DNA of 64,000 nt, taken from NCBI GenBank assembly GCA_019359675.1, contig JAHHGX010000031.1:186001-250000 (forward strand). The letters run 5' to 3'. This document shows positions 16,177 to 35,629 of this stretch, piece by piece (position 1 is the first letter of the stretch; every line of letters starts with the position of its first letter). The translations under genes were made by a program, and so were the position numbers. The stretch comes from Calothrix sp. FI2-JRJ7. Its GTDB lineage: Bacteria; Cyanobacteriota; Cyanobacteriia; Cyanobacteriales; Nostocaceae. The notes below the pieces were generated by a model, which made no database searches, was not told the DNA's origin, and saw nothing but the letters and a program-made list of their open reading frames with translations.

Positions 16177-16249
16177 ATATTGCGAAAACGACTGATAACT
16201 TTACTAAGCCGATGGCGGGATTTGAACCCGCGACCGCTCGATTACGAAT
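16177..16249 (-). repeat. Left attachment site (partial tRNA-Thr copy)
   Basis: This copy contains tRNA-Thr sequence from the discriminator base to the anticodon loop (GCCGATGGCGGGATTTGAAC... on the plus strand), then diverges right after ATTACGAAT. It differs from the right copy only at 16191 (A versus G). Just beyond, TTCGTAATCGA occurs in inverted orientation at about 16277-16287, facing the core TCGATTACGAA. Confidence 0.88.
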
Positions 16250-16386
16250 GAGAGTGCGTATCTATTTATCAACTTTTTCGTAATCGAACAATGAAAAATA
16301 CGTCGTTTTTCGCTTCATATCACCGAGAGAGATAATAACACAAAAAATAGTTAACTCACAAAAATAAGTAATTACCGATGTAATAC

Positions 16387-16420
16387 AAAACGACCGTAAT
16401 CTATTAGCTACGGTCGTTTT
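16387..16420. terminator. Bidirectional terminator hairpin
   Basis: Perfect 12-bp stem AAAACGACCGTA / TACGGTCGTTTT with a 10-base loop, A-run on one side and T-run on the other. It follows the stop of the minus-strand gene at 16423 and shields the element from chromosomal transcription. Confidence 0.8.
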
Positions 16421-16422
16421 CG

Positions 16423-16689
16423 CTATTTTTTAATTTCTGATTCCGCCCATTTAATAGCGAGTTTCCTTAAGACGTGAGACATCCCGCCACGACTCGCGCA
16501 AAGCTTCTTTAACATTTCGTGTTCATCCGGTGTTACGTAGACTTTAATTAACGTGGCGCCTACATCGCGTTGTTTTAGGATGTCGTTGCCGAAACTTAAC
16601 CCCACATCAACATCAATACAGATATTTGTGGGGTCATCTGAGTTACTCAAAGTTTGTAAGTCACTTGAGTTACTCAATGTGTTACTCAC
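16423..16689 (-). CDS. Small DNA-binding-like protein of the element
   Basis: 88 residues. The C-terminal half (ATLIKVYVTPDEHEMLKKLCASRGGMSHVLRKLAIKWAE) has the beta-helix-helix pattern of ribbon-helix-helix repressors or mobilisation accessory proteins; the N-terminal half is polar and Ser/Asp-rich. It lies 14 bp after the RHH gene at 16704-16907 on the same strand, so the two form an operon ending at the strong hairpin 16387-16420. The likely role is control of partition or copy number; this is inferred from position only. Confidence 0.6.
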   Translation of the reverse strand: MSNTLSNSSDLQTLSNSDDPTNICIDVDVGLSFGNDILKQRDVGATLIKVYVTPDEHEMLKKLCASRGGMSHVLRKLAIKWAESEIKK

Positions 16690-16703
16690 GTCTGTAATTA
16701 CGT

Positions 16704-16907: not shown

Positions 16908-16958
16908 AAATTTTTTACCTAATTGTTAAAACGTCCAAAGCATTATCATAACTGCTAC

Positions 16959-17306: not shown

Positions 17307-18221
17307 ATGAAACTATTTGCTGACATCGGTAACTACTCATCCATTACAGCATTTAAAGGCGAAAAACCTTTGATGATTCGTTCTGTTGAAGCTGATGTAA
17401 CTGTTAAGTCAGTTATGGCTAAGAATAGCGATGAATCTCCCACAGTGCAATGTGACGGTAAAAAGCTTATTTTAGGCGAGTTTGCCACTAAGCAGAAAAA
17501 CGTCCAAAGCATTGTAGAACGCGGCAAACATAACGCTAACGTTGTAAAGCCTTATCTGCTTTCTGGACTGCGTGAAGTGTTTAACGGTTCGGTTCATTAC
17601 CTGTTACCGAAGCGTGACCGATGGATTGAGGACGGACTACGAAGCAAGCTAATAGGAACTCACGAAATCAGTATTAACGGTAAGTTCTATAAGCACACCA
17701 TTACTGATATTCAGTTCTTTCTAGAGTCTGACGTAGCAGCACAACACGCTTTCTTAAGTGGCGCCATAGCGGATGACGGAGATTGCCTAGCTATCGATAT
17801 AGGTGGAGGTACAACGAATTACCTCGTTATGACACCTGAAACCACTGTCTTACACAGAAACTCAATTCCTGATGTGGGAGGTATTTCGCTAGCCAATGAC
17901 GTTATTAACTCCGATTGGATGCAAAGTTTTAACTACGCCTTCAACGCTAGTAAAGTTATGGACGCTATAGCAGACGGTTCATTAACCTACGGTCGGCGTT
18001 ACGACTTCTCAGAAGTCTTTAAGCCACTACTAGATAACTGGTTTAACCGTCTAGTAGACAAAATAATGATGGACTGCCGTGACTATATGTCTGATGTTGT
18101 TACCGTAATGTTCATTGGTGGTAACGCTGAGTTAATCCGTAGCCGCGTTGCTAACCAAGAAAGCTACTACATACCCGATAGCCCACAACTAGCAAACATT
18201 ACCGCGTTAATGGAACTCTAA
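17307..18221 (+). CDS. ParM/Alp-like actin-family plasmid segregation protein
   Basis: 304 residues with the actin-fold nucleotide motifs: phosphate-1 FADIGNYSS at the N-terminus, phosphate-2 LAIDIGGGTTNYLVM at about residues 161-175, and adenosine motif VMFIGGNAELIR near residue 271. The length and order fit the ParM/StbA group that forms filaments to push plasmid copies apart, rather than MreB or Hsp70. It is the first gene of a tight plus-strand cluster, and the next ATG overlaps its stop codon by one base. Known ParM systems need an adaptor ParR and a centromere; candidates for both are adjacent. Confidence 0.8.
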   Translation: MKLFADIGNYSSITAFKGEKPLMIRSVEADVTVKSVMAKNSDESPTVQCDGKKLILGEFATKQKNVQSIVERGKHNANVVKPYLLSGLREVFNGSVHYLLPKRDRWIEDGLRSKLIGTHEISINGKFYKHTITDIQFFLESDVAAQHAFLSGAIADDGDCLAIDIGGGTTNYLVMTPETTVLHRNSIPDVGGISLANDVINSDWMQSFNYAFNASKVMDAIADGSLTYGRRYDFSEVFKPLLDNWFNRLVDKIMMDCRDYMSDVVTVMFIGGNAELIRSRVANQESYYIPDSPQLANITALMEL

Positions 18222-18703
18222 TGTATGTAACTATCAGTTCTCATAACATGGCTGAAGTCGAAGGAATCAGAGATAAGTTAGTGGGTGCATCTAATAAGTA
18301 TGTGGTTGATTTAATTTTCGATTCGATAGTTAACGAATGGGGATTAAGGATACATCACACACCAATTAAAAGCGATAGCCACAAAATACGTCTAGCAGAA
18401 CGACATTTTACTTATGTAGAAGAATATGCGACACAAAGACACATATCGTTAACGCTAGCGGCTAATTTAATCCTCAATGACTACTTTTCATTCCGAATAA
18501 GCACAAATTACGCCACTAAGGAGCCACAAATTACACCGACGTTAACTAAAAATAATCCACAGTTACACAAAGTTAACGACGCTGACACAAATAAATCCGA
18601 AGTGGCACAAATTACGCCTAGTCAGCCAGAAACTAAACCCGTAACTGAAGATAAGCCAAAATCATTACGTGGTGCGGCTCTATTACAAAATATCAAAAAC
18701 TAG
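18221..18703 (+). CDS. Putative ParR-like adaptor
   Basis: 160 residues starting within the stop of the parM-like gene (TAATG). The first 100 residues are mixed helical and basic. The tail (from about 105) is polar and Thr/Lys-rich with repeats of AQITP/PQITP type, probably disordered. ParR adaptors bind DNA by a ribbon-helix-helix and the filament by a flexible tail, which this shape would suit. The assignment rests on gene order and coupling, not on recognised homology. Confidence 0.45.
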   Translation: MYVTISSHNMAEVEGIRDKLVGASNKYVVDLIFDSIVNEWGLRIHHTPIKSDSHKIRLAERHFTYVEEYATQRHISLTLAANLILNDYFSFRISTNYATKEPQITPTLTKNNPQLHKVNDADTNKSEVAQITPSQPETKPVTEDKPKSLRGAALLQNIKN

Positions 18704-19264: not shown

Positions 19265-19783
19265 ATGTCGAAGTCACTAGGGTATTACGATTGTCGGTAC
19301 GAGTACGAACTAATCAAAGATATTGCCGAAACTTGGGGTGATAACTTAGAAAAAATCACAGAACTAGACCAAGTTTGGTTAATTGCGCGTCTGTCTAGCC
19401 ACTACTGGATGCAGCATTGTGATGGCACGCCCACGGAGTTAGCGCAAGAAGTCGATTTGAGACTAGAGGAATTACCTCAAAATCAACTCGGAGCTTTGAT
19501 TCAAGCGCTAGCTAATAAATCTTCTACCAAGCCTCTAGGGTACTGGGCATGTAATTACGAATACAAATTAATCATGGATATTGCAGAGAGTTACAACGAA
19601 TTACAAGACATGAACGAAATTGATCAAACATGGTTACTCGGTCGATGTGCTGACTTCTATTTTGTAACTTTCAATTACGACGATATAACCTCATCAGACG
19701 AAGCTGACGAAGTTGTGAGACGAATGCCTACGTTACCCGCTCATCAAATCTACTGCTTAATTCAAGCACTCGCTAATAAGTAA
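19265..19783 (+). CDS. Two-repeat protein of the element
   Basis: 172 residues made of two tandem repeats of about 82 residues. Each begins SLGYYDCRYEYELI / PLGYWACNYEYKLI, contains ELDQVWLIAR / EIDQTWLLGR, and ends LIQALANK / LIQALANK. The family is not recognised. The repeat suggests a pseudo-dimer made by internal duplication. GGAG four bases before the start gives a good ribosome-binding site. A hairpin follows the gene. Confidence 0.65.
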   Translation: MSKSLGYYDCRYEYELIKDIAETWGDNLEKITELDQVWLIARLSSHYWMQHCDGTPTELAQEVDLRLEELPQNQLGALIQALANKSSTKPLGYWACNYEYKLIMDIAESYNELQDMNEIDQTWLLGRCADFYFVTFNYDDITSSDEADEVVRRMPTLPAHQIYCLIQALANK

Positions 19784-20374: not shown

Positions 20375-21103
20375 ATGGCATTAAACGGAAGCAATAGCAC
20401 CAGAAACGATAACGCAAACGAAAACAATAGTTATACGCCCCCAAATCGCGGTAATAGTCCTAAATCGGCTAAACATGTACCGTTACCGCTTAAAATGCTA
20501 CGTTTTTGTATAACGATGGTTATCGGTGCCTTTATATTCGCCAACATCAAACCATATGAAGTGATTGCGACTCAATTCTTAAGCAGTTTTGATTACAATT
20601 CGATTGCTAGTATTATTTCTTCGATACCAATACTAGGCGGTCTAATTCAGTTCATTACTAAGTTTTTCGCGTTCGGCTTGGGTACGGCGTTATGGTGCAT
20701 ATTCCAAATTTTAGAATTACTACCGCTTATCTTATTTGGACACGGGCGATTCCTTAATAACCAAATCGGTAAACACGGTAAAGCGGCTAAGTATCCGGTA
20801 AGCGGCAATGACTCATGGGAAACTAAAGCGGCTAAATTCCTAGGTAACTCATTATCAACTGAGGTTATGCGGTTCCTGGTAGTCATGGCGATAGGGGTTT
20901 ACGTTCTAGATTTCTTATTAATTTTGACCGTATACCCTCCAGTTAAAGGTAATTTCGGCGACTTCCTCTACATTATTCAAACCGCCCAATGGGACAAGAT
21001 TAACTGGGTAAACGTTCTAGTTAGCTTCTGTGTGTTGTTCGCGGTTGAGTTCTTAGTAAAACTTCAAGGCGTAGTCAAGCAAGTTATCGAAGATTTAGCT
21101 TAA
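20375..21103 (+). CDS. Multi-pass membrane protein of the element
   Basis: 242 residues. The first 35 residues are polar and Asn/Ser-rich. Four or five hydrophobic segments follow: about 44-60, 78-105, 110-125, 165-190 and 210-230. The loops are basic (GRFLNNQIGKHGKAAKYP). The family is not recognised. Its place between a membrane-anchored coiled-coil protein and an FtsK/VirD4-like ATPase suggests a role as membrane partner or channel of the ATPase; this is inference. Confidence 0.6.
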   Translation: MALNGSNSTRNDNANENNSYTPPNRGNSPKSAKHVPLPLKMLRFCITMVIGAFIFANIKPYEVIATQFLSSFDYNSIASIISSIPILGGLIQFITKFFAFGLGTALWCIFQILELLPLILFGHGRFLNNQIGKHGKAAKYPVSGNDSWETKAAKFLGNSLSTEVMRFLVVMAIGVYVLDFLLILTVYPPVKGNFGDFLYIIQTAQWDKINWVNVLVSFCVLFAVEFLVKLQGVVKQVIEDLA

Positions 21104-21108
21104 CAACT

Positions 21109-21155
21109 AGGTAGCTCTGGTGAGTTTAATGTGGGTTCAATTCCCACACTACCCA
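21109..21155 (+). ncRNA. tRNA-like fragment without an anticodon arm
   Basis: Directly after the membrane gene: GCTC-TGGT-GAGT (D-arm-like), then a canonical T-arm GTGGG-TTCAATT-CCCAC (21131-21147) fitting TTCRANY with the G-C closing pair. GGTAG (21110-21114) pairs with CTACC (21149-21153) to close the structure. There is no anticodon stem. It may be a decayed tRNA or a structured RNA element in the leader of the ATPase gene. Confidence 0.45.
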
Positions 21156-21164
21156 TTGTCCAAT

Positions 21165-21177
21165 AACCATATAGGAA
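21165..21177 (+). promoter_or_regulatory. AACCATATAGGAA leader motif, copy 3
   Basis: Third copy of the leader motif, 9 bp before the ATPase start at 21187. Confidence 0.5.
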
Positions 21178-21186
21178 TCAAATACT

Positions 21187-22749
21187 ATGACTAGATTTAA
21201 TCCAGATGCCGATTTAGTCTCTATCGAACAATGGGAAGAAATAGCAGAACGTAAAGCCTCTGATACTGGTGTAGCTTGGCGAATAATAGGCGGAATACTA
21301 GCGGGGGGCGTAGGCTTCGCAGCATCAGTACCAGCATTAGGTATTGTTGTGGGAGGTTATCTTTGTTACTCCGCTTACGAACGGTTTCTTAAGTCTGATA
21401 AAGATATAAAAGCCGTTCGTGATTTTGGCTGTATCGCTCACGTACTAGACGAACAAGAATTTAGAAGTTTTGCAAAACAGTTCGGTGATAAAGAGGTTTA
21501 CGACCAAATTTCATTCGCCCTTGACCGTAACTGGGAAGTATCTAAATTTGCTCTAAATTGGCTCAATACTTACGAGCGTGGGCAACAGTTAAAACCAAGC
21601 TGGAAGCAAGATAACCGCACTATTGCATCATCACCAACGCAGGAAGTAAGACAGCTACAACGTAACTGGAATGCTAGCCCACAAGTAGAAATACCTCCAA
21701 TAAAAACAAACGTATCGACTTATAACCCTTACGCTGACAGCCAAATTGATATTGTTGCTGAAATGACCGACCGCGTACAAAATATTTTCGGTGTTGGTCA
21801 AGGTGGTTCGGGTAAAGGAATGCTTTTAGCTAATGCGTGCCGCGCGGTTAAGGCGAAGCATCCAGGTAAAAAGATATTCCTAATTAATGGTAAAGATGAC
21901 CCCAAAGAACACGATTACTTTACCGGATGCGTAGACGTTGAGAAGCCTTTACATTGCGAAACCGCGAAACCTGCCACGGTTGCCGCTTGGTTCGAGGCTG
22001 CAATAGCCGAATACGATGATTATGCAGTTAAGAATAATGGTGCATTACTAGTAATTGATGAAGGCACAATTATAGGCGCCAGATTAAAAGATGCGAAATC
22101 AAACGCATTGAATGACAAGATAATCGGCATTACTAGTTGTGGGGGAAGTACAGGTAAAAATGTATGGGTATTCGCCCAAACACCGTTCGCTGGTGCTGGT
22201 GGAACTAACTTAACCGCTCTATCACAAATGATAAAAGTGGTAATAGTTAGAGGCGATGCAATTGGAGTGTTAGACGAATGGAGAAGAGCGTCAATATTTA
22301 AGAAGTTCAACTCCGATGAAGTCGCGGATTTAGCCGCTAATTCCGAGTGTAATCGTGCGGTTTATTGGGGTGGAAGTGCTAGTTGGTATTCTATGCCTAA
22401 GTTAACTAATTATTCCGCATATGACCGCGATAGTGGAACATTTATAAAGGATGTTTTAACACCAGTTGAAAAGTTAGAACAGTCGTTAGCTATTAGCGAA
22501 ACACCCACAACAATCTTAGATGATTCTAATACTGATGAAGATAACGAGTTATCAGGTATAGCTTACTTAGTTTTTACCATTGTCAAAGCGTCGCGCAATG
22601 AGTACATAAGCTTCGATAGTATCCGTAAATCAAAGCGATGGGGCGAAGACAATAAGATAACTTTTGATGCACTAAGAGAAGTGTTAGAAGAGTTATTAAA
22701 CGCGGCAAAAATAGAAGGTGACGAAAAACGCGGCTATCGTATTATCTAA
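21187..22749 (+). CDS. FtsK/VirD4-like membrane ATPase (putative DNA translocase)
   Basis: 520 residues. Two hydrophobic stretches at about 32-62 (IIGGILAGGVGFAASVPALG and following) anchor the N-terminus. The P-loop is GVGQGGSGKGM (about 202-212), and Walker B is ALLVIDEG with D291 and E292. A sensor-like FAQTPFAGAGG segment follows near residue 335. The last 70 residues look like a winged helix (KRWGEDNKITFDALREVLEELL). This order, membrane anchor - motor - winged helix, is that of FtsK/SpoIIIE and of the Tra translocases of actinomycete elements. Type IV coupling proteins are the alternative. No relaxase is visible nearby. Confidence 0.7.
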   Translation: MTRFNPDADLVSIEQWEEIAERKASDTGVAWRIIGGILAGGVGFAASVPALGIVVGGYLCYSAYERFLKSDKDIKAVRDFGCIAHVLDEQEFRSFAKQFGDKEVYDQISFALDRNWEVSKFALNWLNTYERGQQLKPSWKQDNRTIASSPTQEVRQLQRNWNASPQVEIPPIKTNVSTYNPYADSQIDIVAEMTDRVQNIFGVGQGGSGKGMLLANACRAVKAKHPGKKIFLINGKDDPKEHDYFTGCVDVEKPLHCETAKPATVAAWFEAAIAEYDDYAVKNNGALLVIDEGTIIGARLKDAKSNALNDKIIGITSCGGSTGKNVWVFAQTPFAGAGGTNLTALSQMIKVVIVRGDAIGVLDEWRRASIFKKFNSDEVADLAANSECNRAVYWGGSASWYSMPKLTNYSAYDRDSGTFIKDVLTPVEKLEQSLAISETPTTILDDSNTDEDNELSGIAYLVFTIVKASRNEYISFDSIRKSKRWGEDNKITFDALREVLEELLNAAKIEGDEKRGYRII

Positions 22750-22763
22750 TATTAAATACTAAC

Positions 22764-22846
22764 TGCGGAACTCGGAACTAGGAACTGAACACCTCTAAAA
22801 CCCTAGTTCCGCAACGGTTCCGCGCTAGTTCCGCCTTAGTTTCCGC
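22764..22846. repeat. GGAACT/AGTTCC repeat cluster
   Basis: Three GGAACT units (22767, 22774, 22781) are followed by four inverted units (AGTTCC 22805, GGTTCC 22816, AGTTCC 22827, and a diverged copy near 22838). CGGAACTAGG (22773-22782) and CCTAGTTCCG (22802-22811) form a perfect 10-bp hairpin. It could end the ATPase transcript or serve as a protein-binding iteron cluster. Confidence 0.6.
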
Positions 22847-22922
22847 GTTGTTTCGCACTATTGGGCTAAAGTTACGTAAAATTTTTGAGTTCTATAAATC
22901 TGTAGTTACTATTAGGAGATGT

Positions 22923-23135
22923 ATGTTTTTGAATCTTGCTAACCATCTGATAAAGATAGATGAAATAGTTTCCGTATTTTTTAACTTTGAAACTCGTGGG
23001 GGAGGATATAACCCTTTACCAGGGAAACCACATTACGGAGTAGGAACCGTAGTTATTAGCTTGAGACAATGCAATTGCGCTTTGCTGCTTTTGCTTGGTA
23101 AAGTGCCTTATCTGCCTTCACAATCAAATCTGTAG
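22923..23135 (+). CDS. Small hypothetical protein, probably truncated
   Basis: ATG 22923 has a good ribosome-binding site (AGGAGAT). The first 45 residues (MFLNLANHLIKIDEIVSVFF...) look like a real protein; from about 23056 the frame runs antisense through the end of the GGDEF gene. The original gene was probably cut when the regulator gene arrived. Confidence 0.4.
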   Translation: MFLNLANHLIKIDEIVSVFFNFETRGGGYNPLPGKPHYGVGTVVISLRQCNCALLLLLGKVPYLPSQSNL

Positions 23136-24078
23136 GATAAGAATCCCAACTAGGGATAACAGTTGCTACTCCCAGACTCAACGTGACATACTGATTAATG
23201 GCAGACCCCTCATGAATAATTTGCAAATCTCTGACCCCCGCTTGAATCATATTTGCAACATGAATTGCACTAAATGTATTGGTGTTCGGCATAATTACAG
23301 CAAATTCTTCCCCACCATAACGTGCGACTAAATCATGATGTTTTTGAAGTTTATATTTTAAAGCAGTGCCTATCTTTTGTAAGCAGATGTCTCCAGCAGG
23401 ATGTCCATATTTATCGTTATAAGCTTTAAAAAAGTCTACATCACATAAAATTAGTGACAGAGGGGATTTCTCCTGTGCTAAATTAATCCACTGAGTATTA
23501 AGATAATTATCAAAGCGGCGACGATTAGCCAAGCCAGTTAAACTATCTACGTTTGCCAATTGCTGCAAAGTTTGGTTTGCAGCCTCTAACTGTTTGTAAA
23601 CTTGCCCTTGTTTGAGCAGTTGTCGCACCTGCCGACGTAATAAGGTAAATTGAATTGGTTTTGTAATATAATTAGTTGCTCCTATATCAAAGGCACGATT
23701 TATTGAATCTTCATCATCCAAATCAGTGATCATCAATATAGGAGTACGCTTCCATAGCTGTGAAATCAGAGTATTGTTCATATCCATTTCTGTATCAAAC
23801 CCTGCAAGTGCTGATATCAAATTATTTCTAGCAATTTGCAATAATTTTTGACAGCAGGTAAAGCCATTCATCACAGGCATCACAGCATCTAGCAAAACGA
23901 TATCTGGTTGAACAGTCTCATAAACATTTAAACACTGCTCACCATTACAAACCTCCACCACTCGATAACCTTCATGCTCCATAACTTTTCGTAACGTCAG
24001 TCGCATGAACTTGTCATCATCAGCTATAAGAATGACCGGGGGTTGCTTGCCCTGAGAAGATGCGCTTATGCCTGACAT
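23056..24078 (-). CDS. Response regulator with GGDEF domain (REC-GGDEF), element copy
   Basis: 340 residues from ATG 24078 (MSGISASS). An upstream in-frame Met adds 20 residues absent from the paralogue and was rejected. The receiver domain has ILIADDDKFMR and phospho-acceptor LLDAVMPVMNG; the region also has an insertion (RNNLISALAGFDTEMDMN). The diguanylate cyclase domain has ARYGGEEFAVIMP (active GGEEF). The product-inhibition site RxxD is absent (KHHD). It makes c-di-GMP if active. A close paralogue is just outside the element at 36356-37396. It is unlikely to be part of the element's core functions. Confidence 0.88.
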   Translation of the reverse strand: MSGISASSQGKQPPVILIADDDKFMRLTLRKVMEHEGYRVVEVCNGEQCLNVYETVQPDIVLLDAVMPVMNGFTCCQKLLQIARNNLISALAGFDTEMDMNNTLISQLWKRTPILMITDLDDEDSINRAFDIGATNYITKPIQFTLLRRQVRQLLKQGQVYKQLEAANQTLQQLANVDSLTGLANRRRFDNYLNTQWINLAQEKSPLSLILCDVDFFKAYNDKYGHPAGDICLQKIGTALKYKLQKHHDLVARYGGEEFAVIMPNTNTFSAIHVANMIQAGVRDLQIIHEGSAINQYVTLSLGVATVIPSWDSYPTDLIVKADKALYQAKAAKRNCIVSS

Positions 24079-24222
24079 AATATGTAAAAACCCTAAGTGT
24101 ACCAATACTGTATTAAGTATTCCCAAAATATAGGACATATATAATACTGGTAAAGGGGTATAAATGTAACGAAATATTTCGCCAACAGCATCGAATGCTA
24201 CTCATACCCTAATATCCAAACA

Positions 24223-24420
24223 TTAATCACATACGAGCATTAGGAATAGCTTCAACCGACACCACGCAATGCGCGTTAAGTTTTGATGTTGGTAGTAGAT
24301 TGACTCATGTATAGAGTAAATCCGCTTGATTTCGTCTTTTAGTTCTTGGATATCGCTATAGACATCACCCTTGGCATCGTCGGTAACTTCTAATTCTAGA
24401 TTTGTAATTTTAATTTTCAT
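24223..24420 (-). CDS. Small hypothetical protein (65 aa)
   Basis: Its ATG overlaps the stop of the gene at 24417-24791 by 4 bp (ATGA), so the two are coupled. The start is acidic (MKIKITNLELEVTDDAKGDV), and the middle is a helix (IQELKDEIKRIYSIHES). Function unknown. Confidence 0.55.
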   Translation of the reverse strand: MKIKITNLELEVTDDAKGDVYSDIQELKDEIKRIYSIHESIYYQHQNLTRIAWCRLKLFLMLVCD

Positions 24421-24791
24421 GATAGGGATGCCATTATCTCTAAAATCCGTTTCTTAATCTTGCTGCTATTGTTCTGTGGATATTTTTCGTTGTCTAATAG
24501 TTCACCCAGTTGTTCTATCAATTTACGGTTATCAGACGTAGTTTGCGTAGATTGAATGTTATCTACTCGCTGTCGTAGTTCGTCTATACTATCTTCTATT
24601 TTTTTAATTCTGTCGTTTGGTTGTTCGATAGATTCGTTATTCACTAGTTCGGACGCTTCGCGGTTGACGGCATCGTTAAGAACACGCGCGCAAAAATCAC
24701 TAATTCGGTATCCGCGAACTTTGCAAAGCTTCCTTATCTTTTCCGGTAGTTCGGGATAATCGTCTAATGCAATATTAAATTGTGGTCGCAT
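24417..24791 (-). CDS. RHH-like protein with coiled coil
   Basis: 124 residues. The N-terminal part (PQFNIALDDYPELPEKIRKLCKVRGYRISDFCARVLNDAV) has the strand-helix-helix pattern of ribbon-helix-helix proteins. Residues 60-85 (IKKIEDSIDELRQRVDNIQ) are a coiled coil. Repeats just upstream of its start suggest autoregulation. It may be a second partition or replication regulator. Confidence 0.55.
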   Translation of the reverse strand: MRPQFNIALDDYPELPEKIRKLCKVRGYRISDFCARVLNDAVNREASELVNNESIEQPNDRIKKIEDSIDELRQRVDNIQSTQTTSDNRKLIEQLGELLDNEKYPQNNSSKIKKRILEIMASLS

Positions 24792-24833
24792 AGATTTATC
24801 TAGAAATTTCTATCTAGACAAATAATAACTTTA

Positions 24834-24885
24834 TTTCTTACTCCAGAGATGACTAATTATGTAAAAGTAAGAAACTAGTAAGAAA
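24834..24885. repeat. AGTAAGAAA repeats (operator candidate)
   Basis: Two direct copies, 24866-24874 and 24877-24885, 11 bp apart (about one helical turn), and an inverted copy at 24834-24842, all in front of the minus-strand RHH-like gene. Additional single copies lie near 25059 and 25317. Confidence 0.5.
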
Positions 24886-27149: not shown

Positions 27150-27160
27150 CCCTCTTAGAG

Positions 27161-27446
27161 GATGTTTGAAAAGTCGGCAGTTGAGTAAAAAAAAGCTCTC
27201 AGGGCGTAAGCTGTTAATAAGTAAACACAACAGCACCACTGAGAGAGATGAGTAAATTATACTCTACCAATCTTACCCAAGAGCAATGGGAACTTATTGA
27301 ACCTTTAATCCCAGCACCACTACCTGGCGGTCGCCCAAGAGAAGCGAACATGTGGGAGGTACTTAATGCCATATTTTATGTTAATAGCGAAGGTTGTCGA
27401 TGGCGCGCATTACCAGGTGACTTTCCCAACTGGCAAACAGTTTATA
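27161..27446 (+). mobile_element. IS5-type (DUF4096) insertion sequence, left remnant
   Basis: The left end resembles IS5-group ends (GAGGATGTTTGAAAAGTC) and is followed by the start of a transposase. It is cut at the TA where the IS630-type element begins, and no matching right part follows that element, so the rest has been deleted. Confidence 0.65.
27248..27446 (+). pseudogene. IS5-type transposase, N-terminal fragment
   Basis: Reads LTQEQWELIEPLIPAP and GCRWRALPGDFPNWQTVY, the DUF4096 N-terminal domain of IS5/IS1031-like transposases, then is interrupted after about 66 codons. The DDE domain is absent. Confidence 0.8.
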
Positions 27447-27451
27447 CCATT

Positions 27452-28030
27452 TCACGAAAAGCCTGATACAAATAAAGCTTCTAAAATAAAATCCCATCCA
27501 GCAATAGATTGTATTTGATAAGTGGTAAATTTATCTAGCTGTTTCCAGACAACTTCTTTTAATTCGTCTAATGTTTGAAAGCATTCCCATTTTAATGCTT
27601 TTTTAATTTCCTTCCAAAATCTCTCTATTGGATTAACCTCTGGTGTATATGGAGGTTGAAATAAAAGAATAATATTCTCTGGTACTTGCAGATATTTACT
27701 AAAATGAAATGCTCCGTTATCAACTTGTATTACATGTATATCTTCTGCGTATAATCGAGATAAATTGTCTAAAAATATTCCGAAACAAAGTGCATCTAAA
27801 TGTGAAAATTCAAGTGTAAAGTTCTCACCTGTTAATGGTTCCACCACTCCATATATATAGAAGTTATCTCTCTTCCATTGTGTAAAACCATGTGGTTTTA
27901 TACCTTTTCGTGTAATTAATCTTCCTGTGACAGTCTGGAGTCCAAATCTACTTTCCGAACCACACCAGTAACGTATTTTACGATGTTGTTCTCCAGGTGA
28001 TATTAAATACTTCTTTATCACTCCTAGCAT
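27452..28030 (-). CDS. IS630-type transposase, catalytic part (ORF B)
   Basis: 192 codons in the -1 frame relative to ORF A. It contains IQVDNGAFH (second catalytic Asp) and PEVNPIERFWKEIKK (catalytic Glu). The first catalytic position, usually D-E-S-R, reads GSESRFGL, so the first Asp appears to be Ser. If so, the IS is catalytically dead. It joins ORF A through the slippery A-AAA-AAC at about 28036-28042. Confidence 0.8.
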   Translation of the reverse strand: MLGVIKKYLISPGEQHRKIRYWCGSESRFGLQTVTGRLITRKGIKPHGFTQWKRDNFYIYGVVEPLTGENFTLEFSHLDALCFGIFLDNLSRLYAEDIHVIQVDNGAFHFSKYLQVPENIILLFQPPYTPEVNPIERFWKEIKKALKWECFQTLDELKEVVWKQLDKFTTYQIQSIAGWDFILEALFVSGFS

Positions 28031-28545
28031 TAAAGGAAGTTTTTTTTAAAGTCATCTTCTACACTTTTATCTTGTTTAAGACTCCGTGGGCGAGGCGCCT
28101 TTAATTTGGCTTTCATTTTATAACGTACTACTTCATGTACGACTTTATACGAGGCTTCGATACCAAACTCTGCTAAAAGCCAAGTACAAACTTCCTCATA
28201 ACTTTTAAATCCTTCTGGGTCGGACAATTCTTTTTCGATTTGTGAGCGCACATCAAGTGGTATCTTTTTTGGTCGCCCCGGACTCTTCTTCTCTAAAAGC
28301 ATGTTACTTAAACCTGCCTCTCTATATGCTTTTAACCATCTTTGTATGGTTATACGTCCTCGACCTAATACGGCAGCTAGGTGTTGTACTGTTTCTACTT
28401 GGCGTGTTTTAAGTAAGTATAAAGCTTGAACTCGTTCTTTACCCGACGCCGTTTTTTGCTTCCTCAGCAGTTCTTGGAGAACTTCAAGTGTTTCACTTAT
28501 CTCTAATTTAATAACTCGACTCATTATTTTTAAGTAGTAATGCAC
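28030..28545 (-). CDS. IS630-type transposase, DNA-binding part (ORF A)
   Basis: 171 codons (or 164 from the second Met). Helix-turn-helix region VETVQHLAAVLGRGRITIQRWLKAYREAG and a linker GRPKKIPLDVRSQIEKEL precede the frameshift site. The stop lies just after TTTAAAAAAAAC; a -1 shift at A-AAA-AAC continues into ORF B as DDFKKKLPLM. Programmed frameshifting is known in IS630-family transposases. Confidence 0.8.
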   Translation of the reverse strand: MHYYLKIMSRVIKLEISETLEVLQELLRKQKTASGKERVQALYLLKTRQVETVQHLAAVLGRGRITIQRWLKAYREAGLSNMLLEKKSPGRPKKIPLDVRSQIEKELSDPEGFKSYEEVCTWLLAEFGIEASYKVVHEVVRYKMKAKLKAPRPRSLKQDKSVEDDFKKNFL

Positions 28546-28593
28546 CTTCTCTTAAATGTATCATGATTTTAGTGAAATGGTATTACTATCTTA

Positions 28594-28713
28594 TTATTTA
28601 ATTTTATCCTTATCGTTTAACTTTTTATCTTCCTGTAACTTTACGACTTCTGCCGCGAACGCTTCCATTAACTTTTTATATCTTTTAGATTTCGGTGATA
28701 AATATTCGCCCAT
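28594..28713 (-). CDS. Small lysine-rich protein (39 aa)
   Basis: ATG 28713, GAGG ribosome-binding site overlapping the end of the upstream gene, TAA at 28594. MGEYLSPKSKRYKKLMEAFAA and a charged tail. It is coupled to the coiled-coil gene at 28715-29119. The IS630-type element inserted 12 bp after its stop. Confidence 0.45.
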   Translation of the reverse strand: MGEYLSPKSKRYKKLMEAFAAEVVKLQEDKKLNDKDKIK

Positions 28714-28714
28714 A

Positions 28715-29119
28715 TTAATCCTCGTATGGTTTATAAACTGTCTTAAGATATTCGTCGGTTAACTCTATTTCGTCTGTTGGTGCCAGTGCTATAACTTCTT
28801 CTTCCGCTTCTATTACTTTAGCCCTATCTTCACGATGCCGTAATAGATTTAATAACGGTCTATAACTAGCCATGTAGCTTATTGCGAGTGCTGAATGGTT
28901 ACGATTGTAGGCGCCTAATAGCTTCTGATAGCTGTCTAACAATTGCGCCTTAGTTTTAACGTTCTTAGCTACCGCTATCTGTTTTTTCAAATTGTCCAAC
29001 TCGGACGCGCAAAACTCTAGCTCCTCATCCAGACGCTTTATATAGCCGTAAGTTTTCTCTAATATTTGGGTTGATAGCTCCTCAAATTCTAACGCGGTCG
29101 GTGTTATTTCTTGGCTCAT
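28715..29119 (-). CDS. Coiled-coil protein of the element
   Basis: 134 residues, mostly helical with heptads (ILEKTYGYIKRLDEELEFC, LDNLKKQIAVAKNVKTK) and an acidic C-terminus (EAEEEVIALAPTDEIELTD). No family recognised. Such small charged coiled-coil proteins occur as scaffold or terminase-like accessory proteins, but nothing here proves that. Confidence 0.55.
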   Translation of the reverse strand: MSQEITPTALEFEELSTQILEKTYGYIKRLDEELEFCASELDNLKKQIAVAKNVKTKAQLLDSYQKLLGAYNRNHSALAISYMASYRPLLNLLRHREDRAKVIEAEEEVIALAPTDEIELTDEYLKTVYKPYED

Positions 29120-29549
29120 AATAAAATTCCTATTTAATTACATTATCGCCGATATCCTTCTTAGGTACTACGGCTACGATGCGATTTAAGACGCTTTCAC
29201 CATTGTTTAAGGTGTTTGTATGGTTGACGTGGGAAAGGGCGTAGAAGGGCGAAATCGAGCGGTTACAGGTCTGCGACAAATAGCGTTGACCTATGTCCTT
29301 CTAGGGGACTCACCAAATTACGATACGTGCCGTACTTCCGTTTATAAGGACGGTAGGATACCCACAACAATCTTAGTCATTTGATCAGTAATTCTAACCT
29401 CCATGACTCGGTGGATGTTGCTATTTATCATAATTTACTCATAATTGACACTATACTGATTACTAATTGGTTACATAATGACTACATAATGATTCATAAT
29501 TGAATCATAGTTGACTATATACTTACTCACTACCGTACTAGTAATCATC
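29120..29549. other. Gene-free divergent region with short repeats
   Basis: 430 bp between divergent genes. Near 29436-29520 there are overlapping repeats of CATAATGA and ATAATTGA (for example ACATAATGACTACATAATGATTC). These could be operators for the flanking genes. Confidence 0.4.
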
Positions 29550-30378: not shown

Positions 30379-30922
30379 CTTCAATTACATATAGTCACCG
30401 TGAACGTCTTGTTAATCGCAGGGCGTTTTGTTTTATTAAACGATATGTTTACCCACATTACCCTTTTACCCAAAGTAAGGTGTAATTGGCGAAACCGTTG
30501 ATTTATATAGCGTCTAGCTTCAATTACACATCGGATATTTTTCAATTACACATGATGTAATCACCGTAACGCTTAATATACAAAGGTTTCAGACGTTCAA
30601 TGTCATAATTACATCAATTACATATAAAGAAGAAAATAAAAACAATTATACGTAGATAAAAATATACTAAGTAGAGAGAGAAGAAAAATAAAAGTATGTA
30701 ATTAATGTAATTGAGTAAGTAATTTAAATATATATATATATATATTCTATATATATCAATCATTTCAGCGTTTAGACTCTATTCAATCCGATGTAATCGG
30801 AGATGTAATCGAGACGTAATTGAAACGCTCAATTACATCCATTTCACAAAAATCATAAAAAAACACCCCAAGCAATCAGCAAGGGGTAATGTGGGTAAGT
30901 TACTTCGAGATGTAATTGTTTT
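30379..30922. repeat. Iteron-rich, AT-rich region (replication origin candidate)
   Basis: At least a dozen copies of TGTAATTG/TGTAATCG or their complement CAATTACA(T/C) in 540 bp, for example GATGTAATCGGAGATGTAAT near 30790, CAATTACATATA near 30373 and 30612, and CGCTCAATTACATCC near 30828. A (TA)n tract lies at about 30729-30760. It is directly downstream of the primase-helicase gene. Iterons plus an easily melted tract are the usual parts of a plasmid origin. A CCCC/GGGG hairpin near 30865-30887 may end the rep transcript. Confidence 0.55.
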
Positions 30923-33900
30923 TTATTTGGGTATAAATTCGTTAGCGTAAAAAGTCTTCTTGCGACCATCTACGACAAGCTTACCTTTACCTAGCGCTTC
31001 TAGCTGCTCGAACATTTTAATAATCTTTTGGCTACCACCAGGTTTACGTAATTCGGCTTGAATACCAGCGTTCTGAATATTTGTAGTTGTTATACCATTC
31101 TCTTTTGCGGATTCAGCCATTTCGAGAATCTTATGCATTACAGGGATAATCACAGCCGAACCGCTAGCCACTGCAACAGAAAATTCATCACCAGACATGT
31201 TTTGCGCGTTAAACAGTTGAAACATTTTTTTGGCATGTTCCACGTATATAAGCGAGAGTTTTACAGCCTTTTTTATGGTATCCAGCGATATTAGATAATG
31301 TGGAATAGCCGAATCTCGAATTACATCTTCGTCGGAGTATCCATCGTCGTCTAATGCCAGCCATTTATCTATTTCTTCGTCTATAGCGCTAGGTGCTATA
31401 TCATCAGGCGTTATTAAACGGTTATTTGTATTATTTATTAAATGCAGTATTAACGCTATTCGTAGTACTAGCCCTTTTACTTTACCCCAGTAAGTTTTAA
31501 CACCCGGTAGTGAGCTACCGTCTTTTGCTTTATCTAGTGTCCAATCAGAAAATGATTCAAAGTACGTTCTAGCTGCGGGTGTAAGTGTGTATAAACGAGG
31601 ATTGTTAGCTAGAATTCGGCGATATAATCGCGTTAGCTCACGTTTTAATGCTTTTGGACTACCTTTCCTTTCAAATGATTTTCTGGGGTCATCATTTGAA
31701 ATAACCCACATAAAACGGCTAAATAATCCTCTGGGGTCTTTTCCGCCTTCACCGTATTTATCAAGTATCTCTAGAAGGGTATCATTTTGCGTAGTACCCA
31801 CTATGTTTATTGCACTTTTACTTACGAACACGTTTCTATCATCAGTCTTTCTGTCATGTGTAACACCGCCACCTCCGTGAATGGTTAGTAAGTTTTCGAT
31901 GTCGCTACCTTTACCGTTTTTATAACCGTTTAATCCGGCAAAGAAGCCTGAAATTTCTTCATCTTCTAGGAGTAACCCTGATGATTTCGTCTCTTTATTG
32001 CTAAAAGTAACGTAGTCTAACTGTGTTGCTTGAATTTTTAGTAAAGCCTCCATAGTCGGATTAGTAACCCAAAAACGACGCTTAACAGGTAAATCTTCAG
32101 GTGTGATTAATCCTTTTTGGTACGCTTGCTTTAAAGATTTAACTCCTAATTGTTCTAATAACTTCTTAATTTCTCTTTCGTGCCTACGTCGCGATTTTAC
32201 TTCAAGCTTTTGGATTACTTGTGTTACTAGCGTTAACGCTGGTGATTTTAACCCTCCAGATATTTTAATTACAGCTAACCATAGAATAGCAGGTTGAATA
32301 TATCCTTCCCAGGCTTCTATATTGGTTCCGATGGGTATTAATGAAGCTACTACAGGAAGTAAAAAGCTTAATGCCGCCAAATTGTTATACCCTAAATCGC
32401 GATAGCATTCGCTTAAATGTTCTGCCAACTCGGTGTAAACGTAATTATTTAGATTTATATCTAATTCGCCTACCTTAGAGTATTTATCGAACGAAGTAGC
32501 TAATGCTTCGGTATCTATATGGGTGGATTCAAGCTCGATAGAGTTATAAAGTTCGCGAACGTTATTTATATGTACTCTATGCTTTTTAGATATCTCAGTC
32601 AGTTTAAAATCTAAGTCGCTACCGCTAACGTTAGAGTTAAATAAATCAATTAAATCTTGGCGTATATCTCCGGGTTCCTTATCTTTAGTTCCCTTAGTAG
32701 CATCTGCTTTTGGTTCATCGTAGTAAACATCGTAACCAAGCATGGTACTAGTTACTATGTCCTTTACTCTTTGTGGGTTATCAGCATCGCTAATTGTTTC
32801 GGTAATTCGTTCGATTGTTTCCGATGCGGTTTCCGGTTCTGTTTTAGCGGTGTCTTCGTCTTCTTTCTTATGTGGATGCGTCCATCCGAACTGTTTAGCA
32901 TACCAAAATATAGTAGCTATCGTGGTTGGATTGGCACCGCTGCTGTTAAAGCCACGCCATTTCTTTTCAGGGAACCAATCTTCGAGCGGGTCAGTCGGCG
33001 ACCACTCATCAATTAACTCAATTGCGTCATCCTCTGATATAATCTCAACTTCCGTTGATGCATGATGTAAGCCCATTAGCACAGCTAAACATATAGGATA
33101 GTTACCACTACCCTTTACCCGTTGTGGAAGGTAGGTTAATGCATCCCGTAATAGATTCACGGTGTCTTCAGGTGAGATATCAGGATTAGCGGCTCTAAAA
33201 CGTTCTGCGCGTTCTTTACGCTCTGCTTTCTGTTGTTCAATTATTAGAGCTATTCTTTCTTCATTTTCCTTAACTAGCTCAAAAAAGTTATCCGGTAGTT
33301 TTTTGGTGTTATCTAATATGAACGGCTTTTTACCTTGGGCACCAAAGAAGAAACGATTAGCGTCTACACATTGCTTATCTGCCAATCCACCAAATACGTT
33401 ATCAACCAAGTACCGTAAGCATGACTCAATAAACTTATATCCCCCCATATCGGCTGTAATAGGTTGCGGTAAGCGGAATACGCCCCGAAACTTATGTTGT
33501 GTGGGTGAACTTGACGCGGACGGCATAGCTAGACCGCAATAATCCTTAACAAATTCTATTTCTTGGTATTCTTGGTAAGTTATTGTGCCGTCGAAGTCTA
33601 ACCCTAATATGTGCGCTACGTTCGCGTATTGTTTTCTACGTGGTTTGTCCTCATCCAATATCGAGAACATCCAAGGGTAGCCATTTTCGTGATGCCTAGC
33701 TAAATCAGCGAAACACATCTCTTCTGTCCTAAACGAACCCGGTTCGGATAACTTTGTCTCACCACTTTTATTGATATATAATCCGTTGGTCGCAACGCAG
33801 AATACCTCTGTGTTATCCGCGCTAGCCATTACATCTAATTTTACTTTTTCTGTTTTAGCGACCGCATTAATAACTAATGGCTCTGCGTCTTCGCCTTCTA

Positions 33901-34111
33901 TGAGAGCTACTGCATCGTATGCATTGTATGTATTTACTGTTTTTTCTTCCTTAGCTGCTGTATTCTCCGCAATCCCGTTAGAGTTTCCGGTAATTACATC
34001 TGGCTTGCTAATTTCTTCAGCTTGAGATACACTAATATCAATTGAAAATTTCTTAGTGGGTAGCGCGTTTGCTTTGTCAGGGCTGGACGCGCTATTTGCG
34101 TTTGTATTCAT
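30923..34111 (-). CDS. Primase-helicase-like replication protein (DUF3987-type)
   Basis: 1062 residues. The N-terminal half resembles an archaeo-eukaryotic-type primase of mobile elements: HILGLDFDGTITYQEY with paired acidic residues near 170, SPTQHKFRGVFRLPQPI, and DANRFFFGAQGKKPF. After a linker comes a DUF3987-type helicase-like domain (about 540-1000) starting NNLAALSFLLPVVASLIP. In that domain ISGGLKSPALTLV stands where a Walker A would be, so the motif looks degenerate. The end may be a winged helix (IIKMFEQLEALGKGKLVVDG). This is the most likely Rep of the element. Iteron-like DNA flanks it on both sides. Confidence 0.7.
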   Translation of the reverse strand: MNTNANSASSPDKANALPTKKFSIDISVSQAEEISKPDVITGNSNGIAENTAAKEEKTVNTYNAYDAVALIEGEDAEPLVINAVAKTEKVKLDVMASADNTEVFCVATNGLYINKSGETKLSEPGSFRTEEMCFADLARHHENGYPWMFSILDEDKPRRKQYANVAHILGLDFDGTITYQEYQEIEFVKDYCGLAMPSASSSPTQHKFRGVFRLPQPITADMGGYKFIESCLRYLVDNVFGGLADKQCVDANRFFFGAQGKKPFILDNTKKLPDNFFELVKENEERIALIIEQQKAERKERAERFRAANPDISPEDTVNLLRDALTYLPQRVKGSGNYPICLAVLMGLHHASTEVEIISEDDAIELIDEWSPTDPLEDWFPEKKWRGFNSSGANPTTIATIFWYAKQFGWTHPHKKEDEDTAKTEPETASETIERITETISDADNPQRVKDIVTSTMLGYDVYYDEPKADATKGTKDKEPGDIRQDLIDLFNSNVSGSDLDFKLTEISKKHRVHINNVRELYNSIELESTHIDTEALATSFDKYSKVGELDINLNNYVYTELAEHLSECYRDLGYNNLAALSFLLPVVASLIPIGTNIEAWEGYIQPAILWLAVIKISGGLKSPALTLVTQVIQKLEVKSRRRHEREIKKLLEQLGVKSLKQAYQKGLITPEDLPVKRRFWVTNPTMEALLKIQATQLDYVTFSNKETKSSGLLLEDEEISGFFAGLNGYKNGKGSDIENLLTIHGGGGVTHDRKTDDRNVFVSKSAINIVGTTQNDTLLEILDKYGEGGKDPRGLFSRFMWVISNDDPRKSFERKGSPKALKRELTRLYRRILANNPRLYTLTPAARTYFESFSDWTLDKAKDGSSLPGVKTYWGKVKGLVLRIALILHLINNTNNRLITPDDIAPSAIDEEIDKWLALDDDGYSDEDVIRDSAIPHYLISLDTIKKAVKLSLIYVEHAKKMFQLFNAQNMSGDEFSVAVASGSAVIIPVMHKILEMAESAKENGITTTNIQNAGIQAELRKPGGSQKIIKMFEQLEALGKGKLVVDGRKKTFYANEFIPK

Positions 34112-34324
34112 CTTTTTTTCCTATTAATAAAATTTTTAGTCATTTAACGACTAAGATTGATAAATTTAGAGTTGGTTTATTCGAGTCGTCTACTTTTCAG
34201 ATAAGCACACCGAAATAGATATTGGAAGGCTTACTAGTAATAGTTCACTTCTTTTGTAATTACATTCGGACAACTTTTTAGTAATAATTGAAAAGCTAAA
34301 TGTAATTACCGGAAACCAACCGTA
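34112..34324. other. Intergenic region with TGTAATTAC motifs
   Basis: 213 bp between the integrase and replication genes, both on the minus strand. TGTAATTAC occurs twice (near 34255 and 34307), matching the iteron motif downstream of the replication gene. The region upstream of the replication gene probably contains its promoter. Confidence 0.4.
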
Positions 34325-35515
34325 CTATAGCTCTGGTACGCTTGAAGCGCTAGAAACACCAGCGTAGTGTTGGTATATCGTTTGTGGTGAATTTCCTACC
34401 CAGCGCGAAACTTGTGCAGCACTAATACCACGTTCTAAGCACTGCGAAATAAACGTATGCCTCATGTTGTAGGGACTGCGATATCTAGAGACTTCTCCCA
34501 GTTGCACTAACCGCGAAACGATACCGGGCTTAAACGAACCGCGAGAGTGTTTACCGTGCCAAATACGCAAAAATAAATCTAATTTGATTTCTGAGTTTCT
34601 ATCAGGCGCCAGAAACACGGAACGATTAGAGACTGGCGCAACCGCTCGTAACCTAGTTAATAACTCTCTAATCTGTTGGTTGCAAGGGAATCGTCTATTT
34701 TCGTAGTTCTTAGTGTCTTTACGTCCATACTTACGGTCTAATGTTTCACAAAAGTAAATCTCGTTACAATCGCGGTTTACGTGATGCCATTGAAGCGCTA
34801 TTATTTCTCCTAATCTCGCACCCGTCCAGAAAGCGAACCGCACGAAGTCGCTGTACTCCGGTAACTCCGTATCGAAAGCAGCAATAATACTTTGTTGCTC
34901 CTCTGGTGAGAACGGGTCAATCTTAGTCCATGAGTATTTAGGTACTTTGATACTAGTTGCTAATCCATCAAACGGGTTTGAGGTTATTAGCTTGCTAGTT
35001 ACCGCCCATTTAGCACAAGCGTTGAACTGAGTTAAATAACGCTTCGTTGCGTTTGCAGTGTAGTTACTCAGTAAGTAATCTCTAATCTCTAAGGCTTTAT
35101 TTATATCTTGTGACGGTAACTTAGTGATTAAGTCGGGTATCAATTTGACGTAATGATTGTAGAAATAAGCCTTAGTTACCTGAGATTCCTTAAAAAGAGC
35201 GTACTTATCCCACAACTCAGATAATTGTGGGGTTTTCTTTACGATTTCGATAGTTTGCTTACCTGATAGCTCTTTAAGAGCCGCTTTGTATCGATTTAAA
35301 CTGATGTCAAGCTTGCTGCATTCGATGTCCGTCTCAATCATGAGCGCTACAGTTTGCGCTTTCTTGCGGTTAATCGGGGTATCGTCCATACCCGCATAGA
35401 GATAAATTTGTTTACCGTTGCCGATGCTACGGGGTAATCTAATTCTTAGCCTGTTGTTTATGGCATCAATGGAACATGTACCGCGTTTAGCGATAGGTTT
35501 AATTACGGAAGTCAT
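34325..35515 (-). CDS. int: Tyrosine recombinase (integrase) of the element
   Basis: 396 residues from ATG 35515. The longer frame reads through tRNA-Thr (its spurious head spells MYADVAQLVEHSIR) and was rejected; DNA between 35515 and 35560 consists of direct repeats. The catalytic domain has GARLGEIIALQW (Arg), YNMRHTFISQ (second Arg; Tyr replaces the usual His four positions earlier) and YQHYAG (nucleophilic Tyr). It lies 71 bp downstream of the tRNA 3' end on the same strand, so tRNA transcription may run into it when integrated. Confidence 0.9.
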   Translation of the reverse strand: MTSVIKPIAKRGTCSIDAINNRLRIRLPRSIGNGKQIYLYAGMDDTPINRKKAQTVALMIETDIECSKLDISLNRYKAALKELSGKQTIEIVKKTPQLSELWDKYALFKESQVTKAYFYNHYVKLIPDLITKLPSQDINKALEIRDYLLSNYTANATKRYLTQFNACAKWAVTSKLITSNPFDGLATSIKVPKYSWTKIDPFSPEEQQSIIAAFDTELPEYSDFVRFAFWTGARLGEIIALQWHHVNRDCNEIYFCETLDRKYGRKDTKNYENRRFPCNQQIRELLTRLRAVAPVSNRSVFLAPDRNSEIKLDLFLRIWHGKHSRGSFKPGIVSRLVQLGEVSRYRSPYNMRHTFISQCLERGISAAQVSRWVGNSPQTIYQHYAGVSSASSVPEL

Positions 35516-35556
35516 TACAAACGTCACCATTCGCGTCATTACAAACGTGTATGGTG
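35511..35556. repeat. Direct repeats beside the right attachment site
   Basis: GTCATTACAAACGT occurs at 35511-35524 and 35535-35548 (24-bp period), with CACCAT (35525) and ATGGTG (35551) inverted around them. They resemble arm-type recombinase sites or an operator over the int start. Confidence 0.55.
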
Positions 35557-35629
35557 ATATTGCGAAAACGGCTGATAACTTTACTAAGCCGATGGCGGGA
35601 TTTGAACCCGCGACCGCTCGATTACGAAT
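35557..35629 (-). repeat. Right attachment site
   Basis: Right copy of the 73-bp direct repeat; it forms the 3' half of the intact tRNA-Thr and the 30 bp after it. The sequence identity with the left copy ends in the anticodon arm. Confidence 0.9.

Follow-up and report, generated by a model that had tools for sequence, protein, structure and literature searches.

The window analysed here, a stretch of 64,000 nucleotides (contig C31, positions 186001-250000) of the 8.66-Mb genome of Calothrix sp. FI2-JRJ7, carries a 19.4-kb integrative element (16177-35629; positions are those of the window). We consider it somewhat better than an even chance that this is a transfer element of a multicellular Gram-negative bacterium resembling the actinomycete integrative and conjugative elements (AICEs), one that would integrate, replicate, partition itself and be moved as double-stranded DNA, without a relaxase, by an FtsK/HerA-type pump. 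What is new here is a repeat array directly 3' of the gene of the element's ATPase, which covaries with a predicted winged helix at the C terminus of that protein. The features on which the argument depends are the following.

16177-16249, left attachment-site copy, 73 bp (3' half of the tRNA-Thr plus 30 bp)
17307-18221, plus strand, ParM-like actin partition protein (PF21522, 2.1e-11; phrog_691, 2.4e-24)
18221-18703, plus strand, 160-aa partner of the ParM gene, putatively with a ParR-like role
19265-19783, plus strand, 172-aa conserved protein, apparently two repeats of ~85 aa
19842-20354, plus strand, tm170, one N-terminal membrane helix and a second domain (hydropathy, gene order)
20375-21103, plus strand, tm242, polytopic membrane protein with 5 hydrophobic segments (hydropathy, gene order)
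21187-22749, plus strand, ATPase of 520 aa anchored in the membrane (helices at the N terminus, RecA-like motor with FtsK/HerA-like motifs, predicted C-terminal winged helix)
22765-22847, clt-like array, GGAACT three times, then AGTTCC-type sites in the opposite orientation
30380-30820, short iteron-like repeats on the 5' side of the replication gene, probably the origin
30923-34111, minus strand, replication protein of primase-helicase type, 1062 aa (hidden Markov model [HMM] matches to PriCT_2 and DUF3987)
34325-35539, minus strand, tyrosine integrase (PF00589, 4.5e-9; start codon at 35539 picked by eye), adjoining the attachment site
35557-35629, right attachment-site copy, overlapping the intact tRNA
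35587-35659, minus strand, intact tRNA-Thr(CGT), the integration target (ARAGORN)

Fifteen bases separate the stop codon of the ATPase gene from the array, which runs GCGGAACT, CGGAACT, AGGAACT and then AGTTCC-type sites in reverse orientation, ending at 22847. Across the 8.66-Mb genome there is a single occurrence of the 22-bp pattern at its head, a fact that we did not use as an argument. The relative in PCC 7103 has TGGGTGCA-type repeats (GGGTGCA) in both orientations at the same place behind its ATPase gene. We defined an array as a best 7-mer found at least four times in 300 bp with a shuffle p of ≤0.02, and applied this definition to 103 distinct loci, that is, open reading frames (ORFs) of at least 150 codons, some of them fragments, with at least 200 bp of 3' DNA (184 profile matches, of which 123 were kept and 103 left after removing near-identical C termini). 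Arrays were found behind the ATPase gene at 36 of these loci, always with the first repeat 0 to 36 bp 3' of the stop codon (36/36), against a background of 24 passes among 711 random 300-bp windows of the same loci. Their presence depended on the kind of C terminus: none of the 34 proteins with a type-b C terminus (a class of the last 75 residues built from 12 C-terminal sequences, chosen by sequence alone after the array table had been seen) was followed by an array, compared with 36 of the 69 others (Fisher, 8e-9).

Where arrays were present, their sequence followed that of the C terminus. Across the 36 loci, C-terminal identity correlated with repeat similarity (Mantel r of 0.44, p of 2e-4), also after regression on the identity of the motor (r of 0.37, p of 2e-4), with the proviso that the shuffles and the Mantel permutations leave shared ancestry in. 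A 7-mer was shared by 7 of the 8 pairs with C-terminal identity of ≥60%, while 5 of 32 pairs were alike between 30 and 60% and ca. 1% of 590 pairs below 30%. GGTGTGA arrays, for example, occurred in Calothrix sp. HK-06, PCC 7716 (L028) and a plasmid of Scytonema sp. HK-05, CGCCACA arrays in L294, the Fischerella plasmid AP018303 (L035) and L010, and a GGAAC core was common to the window, L060 and L031. L294 shared only 28% motor identity with L035 and L010, but 71 to 72% identity at the C terminus. Exceptions were the pair L308/L100 (C termini 68% identical, partial repeat match only), L091 and L092 compared with L305 (53 to 54%, repeats unmatched), and L014 compared with L006, L028 and L034 (38 to 48%, repeats unmatched). 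The DNA 300 to 1500 bp downstream was unrelated in 9 of 10 usable pairs (the related pair being L006/L028), and we therefore think that the C terminus and the array travel as a cassette. The pair L013/L069 was excluded from this comparison of downstream DNA, as it had been made with the wrong fragment of L069. As a prediction from sequence, the array as the cognate site of the winged helix is well supported. Simple tandem heptamers (STRR) are common in Nostocales; the arrays, at the loci scanned, differ from them in their position, their two orientations and their covariation with the C terminus.

The ATPase itself gave no significant match to Pfam, NCBIfam or PHROG profiles, and phmmer and profile searches of the PDB returned nothing useful. 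Its AlphaFold2 model, computed from 38 sequences, had a predicted local distance difference test (pLDDT) value of 81.2 and showed helices at the N terminus, a core of RecA type and a separate domain at the C terminus; folded alone from 14 sequences (pLDDT of 84.0), this last domain had three helices and two strands. Foldseek matched it to MecI, biotin ligase, Fur, PadR and RosR with probabilities mostly of 0.9 to 1.0 and none below an E value of 0.001; most of these matches we take to be winged-helix proteins. The C-terminal domain (within residues 446-520) is thus predicted to be a winged helix. For the motor, a comparison of the ATPase profile with a profile of 14 FtsK sequences gave a probability of 82% (86% with two TraB sequences added), over an alignment covering Walker A, the DPK motif and strand, Walker B and the Q-x-P motif and strand. 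The DnaB profile, sole control of this comparison, gave 0.3%, a three-sequence set of type IV coupling proteins 58% over 69 columns, and two TraB sequences 40%. Among 28 family members, 2 touched PF01580 (FtsK_SpoIIIE), 6 SXT_TraD and 15 the generic AAA_22. The ATPase is probably a remote FtsK/HerA-type motor. The FtsK/VirD4-like membrane ATPase of the preliminary description, which had been drawn from the window alone, has the membrane helices and a modest likeness to the FtsK profile in its favour; its kinship is remote, and it lies outside PF01580.

The element is a genuine insertion. The 73-bp repeats that bracket it are identical at 72 of 73 bases, and the right one spans the 3' 43 nucleotides of the intact tRNA-Thr and 30 nucleotides downstream. 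Using the tRNA and the right flank as query, the same locus was recovered in 6 of 6 congeneric genomes, and none of the six held the element there. Three sites were clean (G060, G061 and G064), with other chromosomal sequence directly after the tRNA and homologues of the left flank of the window further on; the other three carried remnants of related elements behind the tRNA-Thr (L121, 1274-1357; L125, 19182-19300; L122, 18203-18463). In G062 and G063 the remnant was of the right end of the element, and that of G063 included 35 residues from the beginning of the integrase, 86% identical. G065 had, within ca. 1.2 kb of the tRNA-Thr, a fragment similar to the 160-aa ORF. The empty tRNA-Thr site in relatives, set beforehand as a check on the insertion, was hence found both clean and scarred, so that the 73-bp repeat is not a tandem duplication. 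The tRNA-Thr site was probably used and vacated earlier, and such a previous visit to the target would explain why the repeat runs 30 bp beyond the tRNA.

The gene content is that of an integrative plasmid. We scanned 19 ORFs against Pfam (E values up to 0.5) and 10 against PHROGs, and took 0.001 as threshold. The integrase, the primase-helicase-like replication protein and the ParM-like partition gene proposed earlier were all recovered by HMM matches, and the iteron-rich flank of the replication gene was borne out by the repeats at ca. 30380-30820, which include TCAATTACA four times and others. The N-terminal 319 aa of the replication protein gave no relevant match. The ParM-like protein was 53 to 55% identical to proteins annotated as ParM on several Nostocales plasmids; its 160-aa partner has a 67% identical orthologue adjoining parM in Calothrix PCC 7103, and orthologues of the 172-aa protein hold the same position in other elements. 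In the ORFs scanned, no relaxase, VirB4, capsid, portal or terminase match reached the threshold, in agreement with the claim that no relaxase, mating-pair or phage genes were visible, and there was no match to NurA. Weaker matches were a NikA-like one for the 88-aa ORF at 16423-16689 (0.17), phrog_833 endolysin for 18221-18703 (0.028), phrog_1047 tail lysin for 24417-24791 (0.037) and phrog_7970 "virion structural" for the 134-aa ORF at 28715-29119 (0.0058); the best match of a PADLOC scan was 0.0011.

The ATPase is part of a module that is widespread in the family of the host. Homologues were present in 92 of its 217 genomes, and when 388 genomes of the class were searched with a profile, 51 proved positive. 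The order tm170-tm242-ATPase was found by BLASTP at 26 of 52 loci (one of them, L044, a second copy of L039, and two giving no row), so the single FtsK-like translocase of the preliminary description is not alone, two conserved membrane-protein genes preceding it in half of the loci. The closest relatives of the ATPase were in Calothrix/Nostocales records. Others were on 19 plasmid records, of genera that we take to be Nostocales, none covering 80% of the query in one piece. A search of the genome collection with a pattern derived from Nostocales gave 48 loci, each under a cyanobacterial title and presumably each from a filamentous genus. The family is apparently undescribed: no description appeared among the titles and abstract openings listed in searches of the open-licence PubMed Central literature, which is no proof of absence. 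The host genome has two further family genes (G000:C80:109682 and G000:C13:50572; L131 and L132), both of the array-less type. Contig C13 and the viral-database contig L148 are both 74,115 bp long, and the module may therefore be miscalled as viral.

Two relatives illustrate the same plan. AP018200 of Scytonema sp. HK-05, a circle of 17,328 bp with ParM, integrase, the module and a DUF3987 protein related to the replication protein of the window, is a free circular form of it. In Calothrix sp. HK-06 (G062:C186), a related element with its own integrase and a VapE/DUF3854 primase lies behind a tRNA-Phe in two tandem copies, which have a period of 20,327 bp and a single mismatch over a compared length of 20.4 kb (BLASTN, 99.99% over 14.9 kb); these tandem copies may be an assembly error. 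The 3' half of the tRNA-Phe occurs at three places (the tRNA, the copy junction and the far end), and the repeat begins at the anticodon region, as in the window. A second integrase gene, 35% identical to that of the window, lies just outside the second copy (G062:C186:60619-61770). Integration at a tRNA gene was observed for these two members only, the window element and that of HK-06. Among the 48 loci, which span at most ca. 21 kb and often lie on short contigs (the HK-06 insertion was seen on the whole contig), only two contained a tRNA gene at all, and a repeated tRNA end was found in none; the PCC 7103 relative had no tRNA in 80 kb.

The closest parallels are the AICEs and the TraB-clt systems of Streptomyces. 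With these the element shares an integrase (tyrosine or serine in AICEs, tyrosine here), a site at a tRNA 3' end, its own replication, the lack of any detected relaxase or type IV secretion system (T4SS), a membrane-anchored ATPase (here probably FtsK-like) with a C-terminal winged helix (in our case predicted) and 7- to 8-bp repeats, which in both the element and the Streptomyces plasmid pWTY27 stand directly beside the ATPase gene (PMC3218068, PMC3583192). In pWTY27, clt is made up of 16 bp of traA and an adjoining 159 bp, and contains inverted repeats as well as four repeats of 7 bp (PMC3583192). The sequence of clt varies from plasmid to plasmid, and TraB of pSVH1 recognizes repeats of 8 bp with helix 3 of the winged helix at its C terminus (PMC3583192). 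However, AICE hosts are Actinomycetales and the host here is a cyanobacterial diderm; the AICE Tra protein is defined by an FtsK/SpoIIIE domain (PF01580) that our ATPase lacks; and AICEs replicate by RepSA, RepAM (DUF3631) or Prim-Pol (PF09250) rather than by a DUF3987 and PriCT_2 protein (PMC3218068). The two conserved upstream membrane proteins and the ParM partition are further differences. Because of the missing PF01580, the other replication protein and the other phylum, the element is not an AICE by published criteria (PMC3218068), although its anatomy may be called AICE-like. The AICE plan proposed in the preliminary description thus holds for the integrative plasmid and the general likeness, to which the clt-like array, then unseen, can be added, and fails in that the ATPase is outside PF01580 and does not stand alone.

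A second parallel is ICEth1 of Thermus thermophilus, 14.9 kb long and flanked by 47-bp repeats taken from the 3' end of a tRNA, whose TdtA is a hexameric, membrane-located FtsK/HerA-type ATPase required for DNA donation, in the sections of the paper available (PMC5365140). The tRNA-end repeats and one FtsK/HerA-type ATPase at the membrane (here a probable one) are common to both. By the same sections, TdtA is paired with NurA and restriction genes, the recipient takes up DNA by competence, and no repeat array is mentioned (PMC5365140), whereas the element here has an array and no NurA match. Cyanobacterial integrative and conjugative elements (ICEs) and conjugative plasmids of the T4SS type (MOBV with mating-pair formation [MPF] genes) have the same hosts and a coupling-type ATPase that probably belongs to the same superfamily, but need a relaxase and VirB4/VirD4, none of which was found in the element ORFs scanned. 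FtsK/SpoIIIE shares the membrane anchor, the RecA-like motor and a winged helix as DNA reader (here a predicted one); the motor here differs in being plasmid-borne, with an element-specific array beside its gene. Tycheposons of marine picocyanobacteria are also integrative elements at tRNA sites with a tyrosine recombinase, and we know of no FtsK-type module in them.

If the element is such a transfer element, the tyrosine integrase would excise it as a circle, which would replicate from the primase-helicase origin and be partitioned by the ParM system. The winged helix would dock on the array behind its own gene, as at a clt-like site, and so load the pump; tm170 and tm242 may form or place a membrane pore, through which the membrane-anchored FtsK/HerA-type ATPase, presumably as a hexamer, would move double-stranded DNA. 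Delivery into a neighbouring cell could be direct, or could combine export by the donor with competence of the recipient, as in Thermus transjugation.

Several observations weigh against this proposal. On the side of the motor, the window ATPase has no PF01580 match, and among its relatives matches to AAA_22 outnumber those to FtsK or TraD. Single-sequence hhalign gave Rho as best (75%), followed by VirB11 (40%), TraB (29%) and FtsK (10%), with no preference for FtsK, so we used only the profile comparison, itself modest; and the best 50 Foldseek matches of the whole model were generic RecA-like folds (KaiC, Rho, Orc) with no FtsK among them. As for the array, 33 of the 69 relatives without a type-b C terminus have none detected, and that of the window is among the weaker (best 7-mer four times, a value reached by 5% of other windows of the element). 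The covariation is partly linkage, array and C terminus being adjacent DNA, three of the best-matching pairs form one trio, and 27 of the 32 pairs of intermediate C-terminal identity do not have similar repeats. Lastly, ATPase relatives occur also on large plasmids with relaxases (6 of the 19 records were typed as conjugative), which would seem to have no need of a second transfer system.

Beyond this single element, and with confidence a little short of even, we suggest that filamentous cyanobacteria may have their own relaxase-free transfer of double-stranded DNA, consisting of a three-gene pump whose cargo would be chosen by a swappable winged helix and its cognate array, which would have evolved apart from TraB/clt, would spread plasmids within and between filaments, and could explain the movement of many plasmids that lack a relaxase. 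In a plasmid survey, 374 of 424 cyanobacterial plasmids (88%) were likely immobile under a relaxase model, and its authors point out that cyanobacteria had previously been suggested to conjugate by an unknown mechanism (PMC8600333). An ICE survey described FtsK-based transfer for actinobacteria and found cyanobacterial ICEs only in Cyanothece (PMC3158045). The module is a concrete candidate for the transfer of these relaxase-less plasmids, and if the suggestion is true, FtsK-type DNA transfer would be found in two groups of multicellular bacteria. The pairing of a winged helix with an array makes a cheap and direct test possible.

The main rival, which we judge unlikely but well ahead of the others, is a role in maintenance: the ATPase would load on the array and pump or position plasmid copies during septation, in the manner of FtsK and with no transfer to another cell line, and in a filament of polyploid cells it would keep a low-copy plasmid in every cell. 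Both in the window and in PCC 7103 the module follows the ParM gene at a distance of a few genes, and it also occurs on plasmids with their own relaxase or T4SS. Moreover, a search of the host genome for FtsK_SpoIIIE yielded two weak matches, one of them just over the cut-off on contig C82, and no canonical FtsK. However, the element already has a ParM partition system, and the array adjoins the gene of the motor, as the clt does in pWTY27; both points speak against this rival.

Quite improbable, in our estimate, is that the element hitch-hikes, with the ATPase as a coupling protein that feeds it into the T4SS of another plasmid. Contig C82 of the host does hold a VirD4-family gene, and its FtsK_SpoIIIE match is a frame of 937 codons (perhaps VirB4); the SXT_TraD matches of family members and the sub-threshold NikA-like match of the 88-aa protein point the same way. 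Nevertheless, no relaxase was found in the element ORFs scanned or in the ten large ORFs of two small circular relatives, and MOB typing gave both of these as non-mobilizable, the same verdict as for pIJ101, which is known to transfer.

We give still less credit to the array having nothing to do with the ATPase, as an origin, operator or terminator that follows the C terminus merely as a DNA neighbour. Its inverted copies could fold, neighbouring DNA is co-inherited and repeat-sharing pairs also share spacer sequence, but arrays are completely lacking behind the 34 type-b C termini, the downstream DNA does not follow in nine of the ten usable pairs, and the iteron-like repeats are located elsewhere, by the replication gene. 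Least probable of all is a remnant or satellite of a membrane-containing virus, with the FtsK/HerA-type ATPase as packaging motor and the array as packaging site: the HK-06 element encodes an endolysin (phrog_435, 2.8e-50) and, like L062 and L082, has a cluster of seven genes with a structural flavour, the 134-aa ORF of the window has its weak virion match, and ATPase relatives lie on 10 viral-database contigs (viral scans gave one relative of TraB and none of TrwB), but neither the window nor the HK-05 plasmid has the cluster, two complete plasmids of ca. 20.8 kb carry relatives of its proteins without the module, neither the ATPase nor the 526-aa protein of the cluster matched any of 50,697 phage records, and the ORFs scanned gave no capsid, portal or terminase.

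The transfer reading can dispense with this virus-like cluster, which yet keeps the packaging motor alive as a rival. It encodes proteins of 300, 665, 225, 82, 130, 526 and 134 aa and is located at ca. 20,400-29,200 of G062:C186 (HK-06; L314 and L129), in L062 and at 12,800-20,700 of L082. The 526-aa protein, which matched no viral-database contig either, has family members in 40 of the 217 host-family genomes, and in G073:C81 there are two equal-scoring copies 18,006 bp apart. Of the two circular plasmids, NZ_CP064893 holds relatives of five of the seven proteins and NC_019743 of three. The cluster may represent an undescribed family of non-tailed cyanobacterial viruses, or a plasmid.

The remaining annotated features of the element are three.

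16423-16689, minus strand, 88-aa small protein, recurrent in relatives (weak sub-threshold NikA-like and regulator matches)
23056-24138, minus strand, response-regulator diguanylate cyclase (GGDEF), cargo
27248-28545, insertion sequence (IS) remnants, an IS4/5 piece and an IS630-type pair, secondary insertions

The IS pieces and the GGDEF response regulator look like later cargo, the latter being 62% identical to a resident paralogue at 36356-37396, just outside the right end. On the other side of the element, the left flank (14649-15634) has genes for a PemK-like toxin, for what is probably an antitoxin and, in truncated form, for a Uma2 nuclease, and parts of this flank are common to several congeners.

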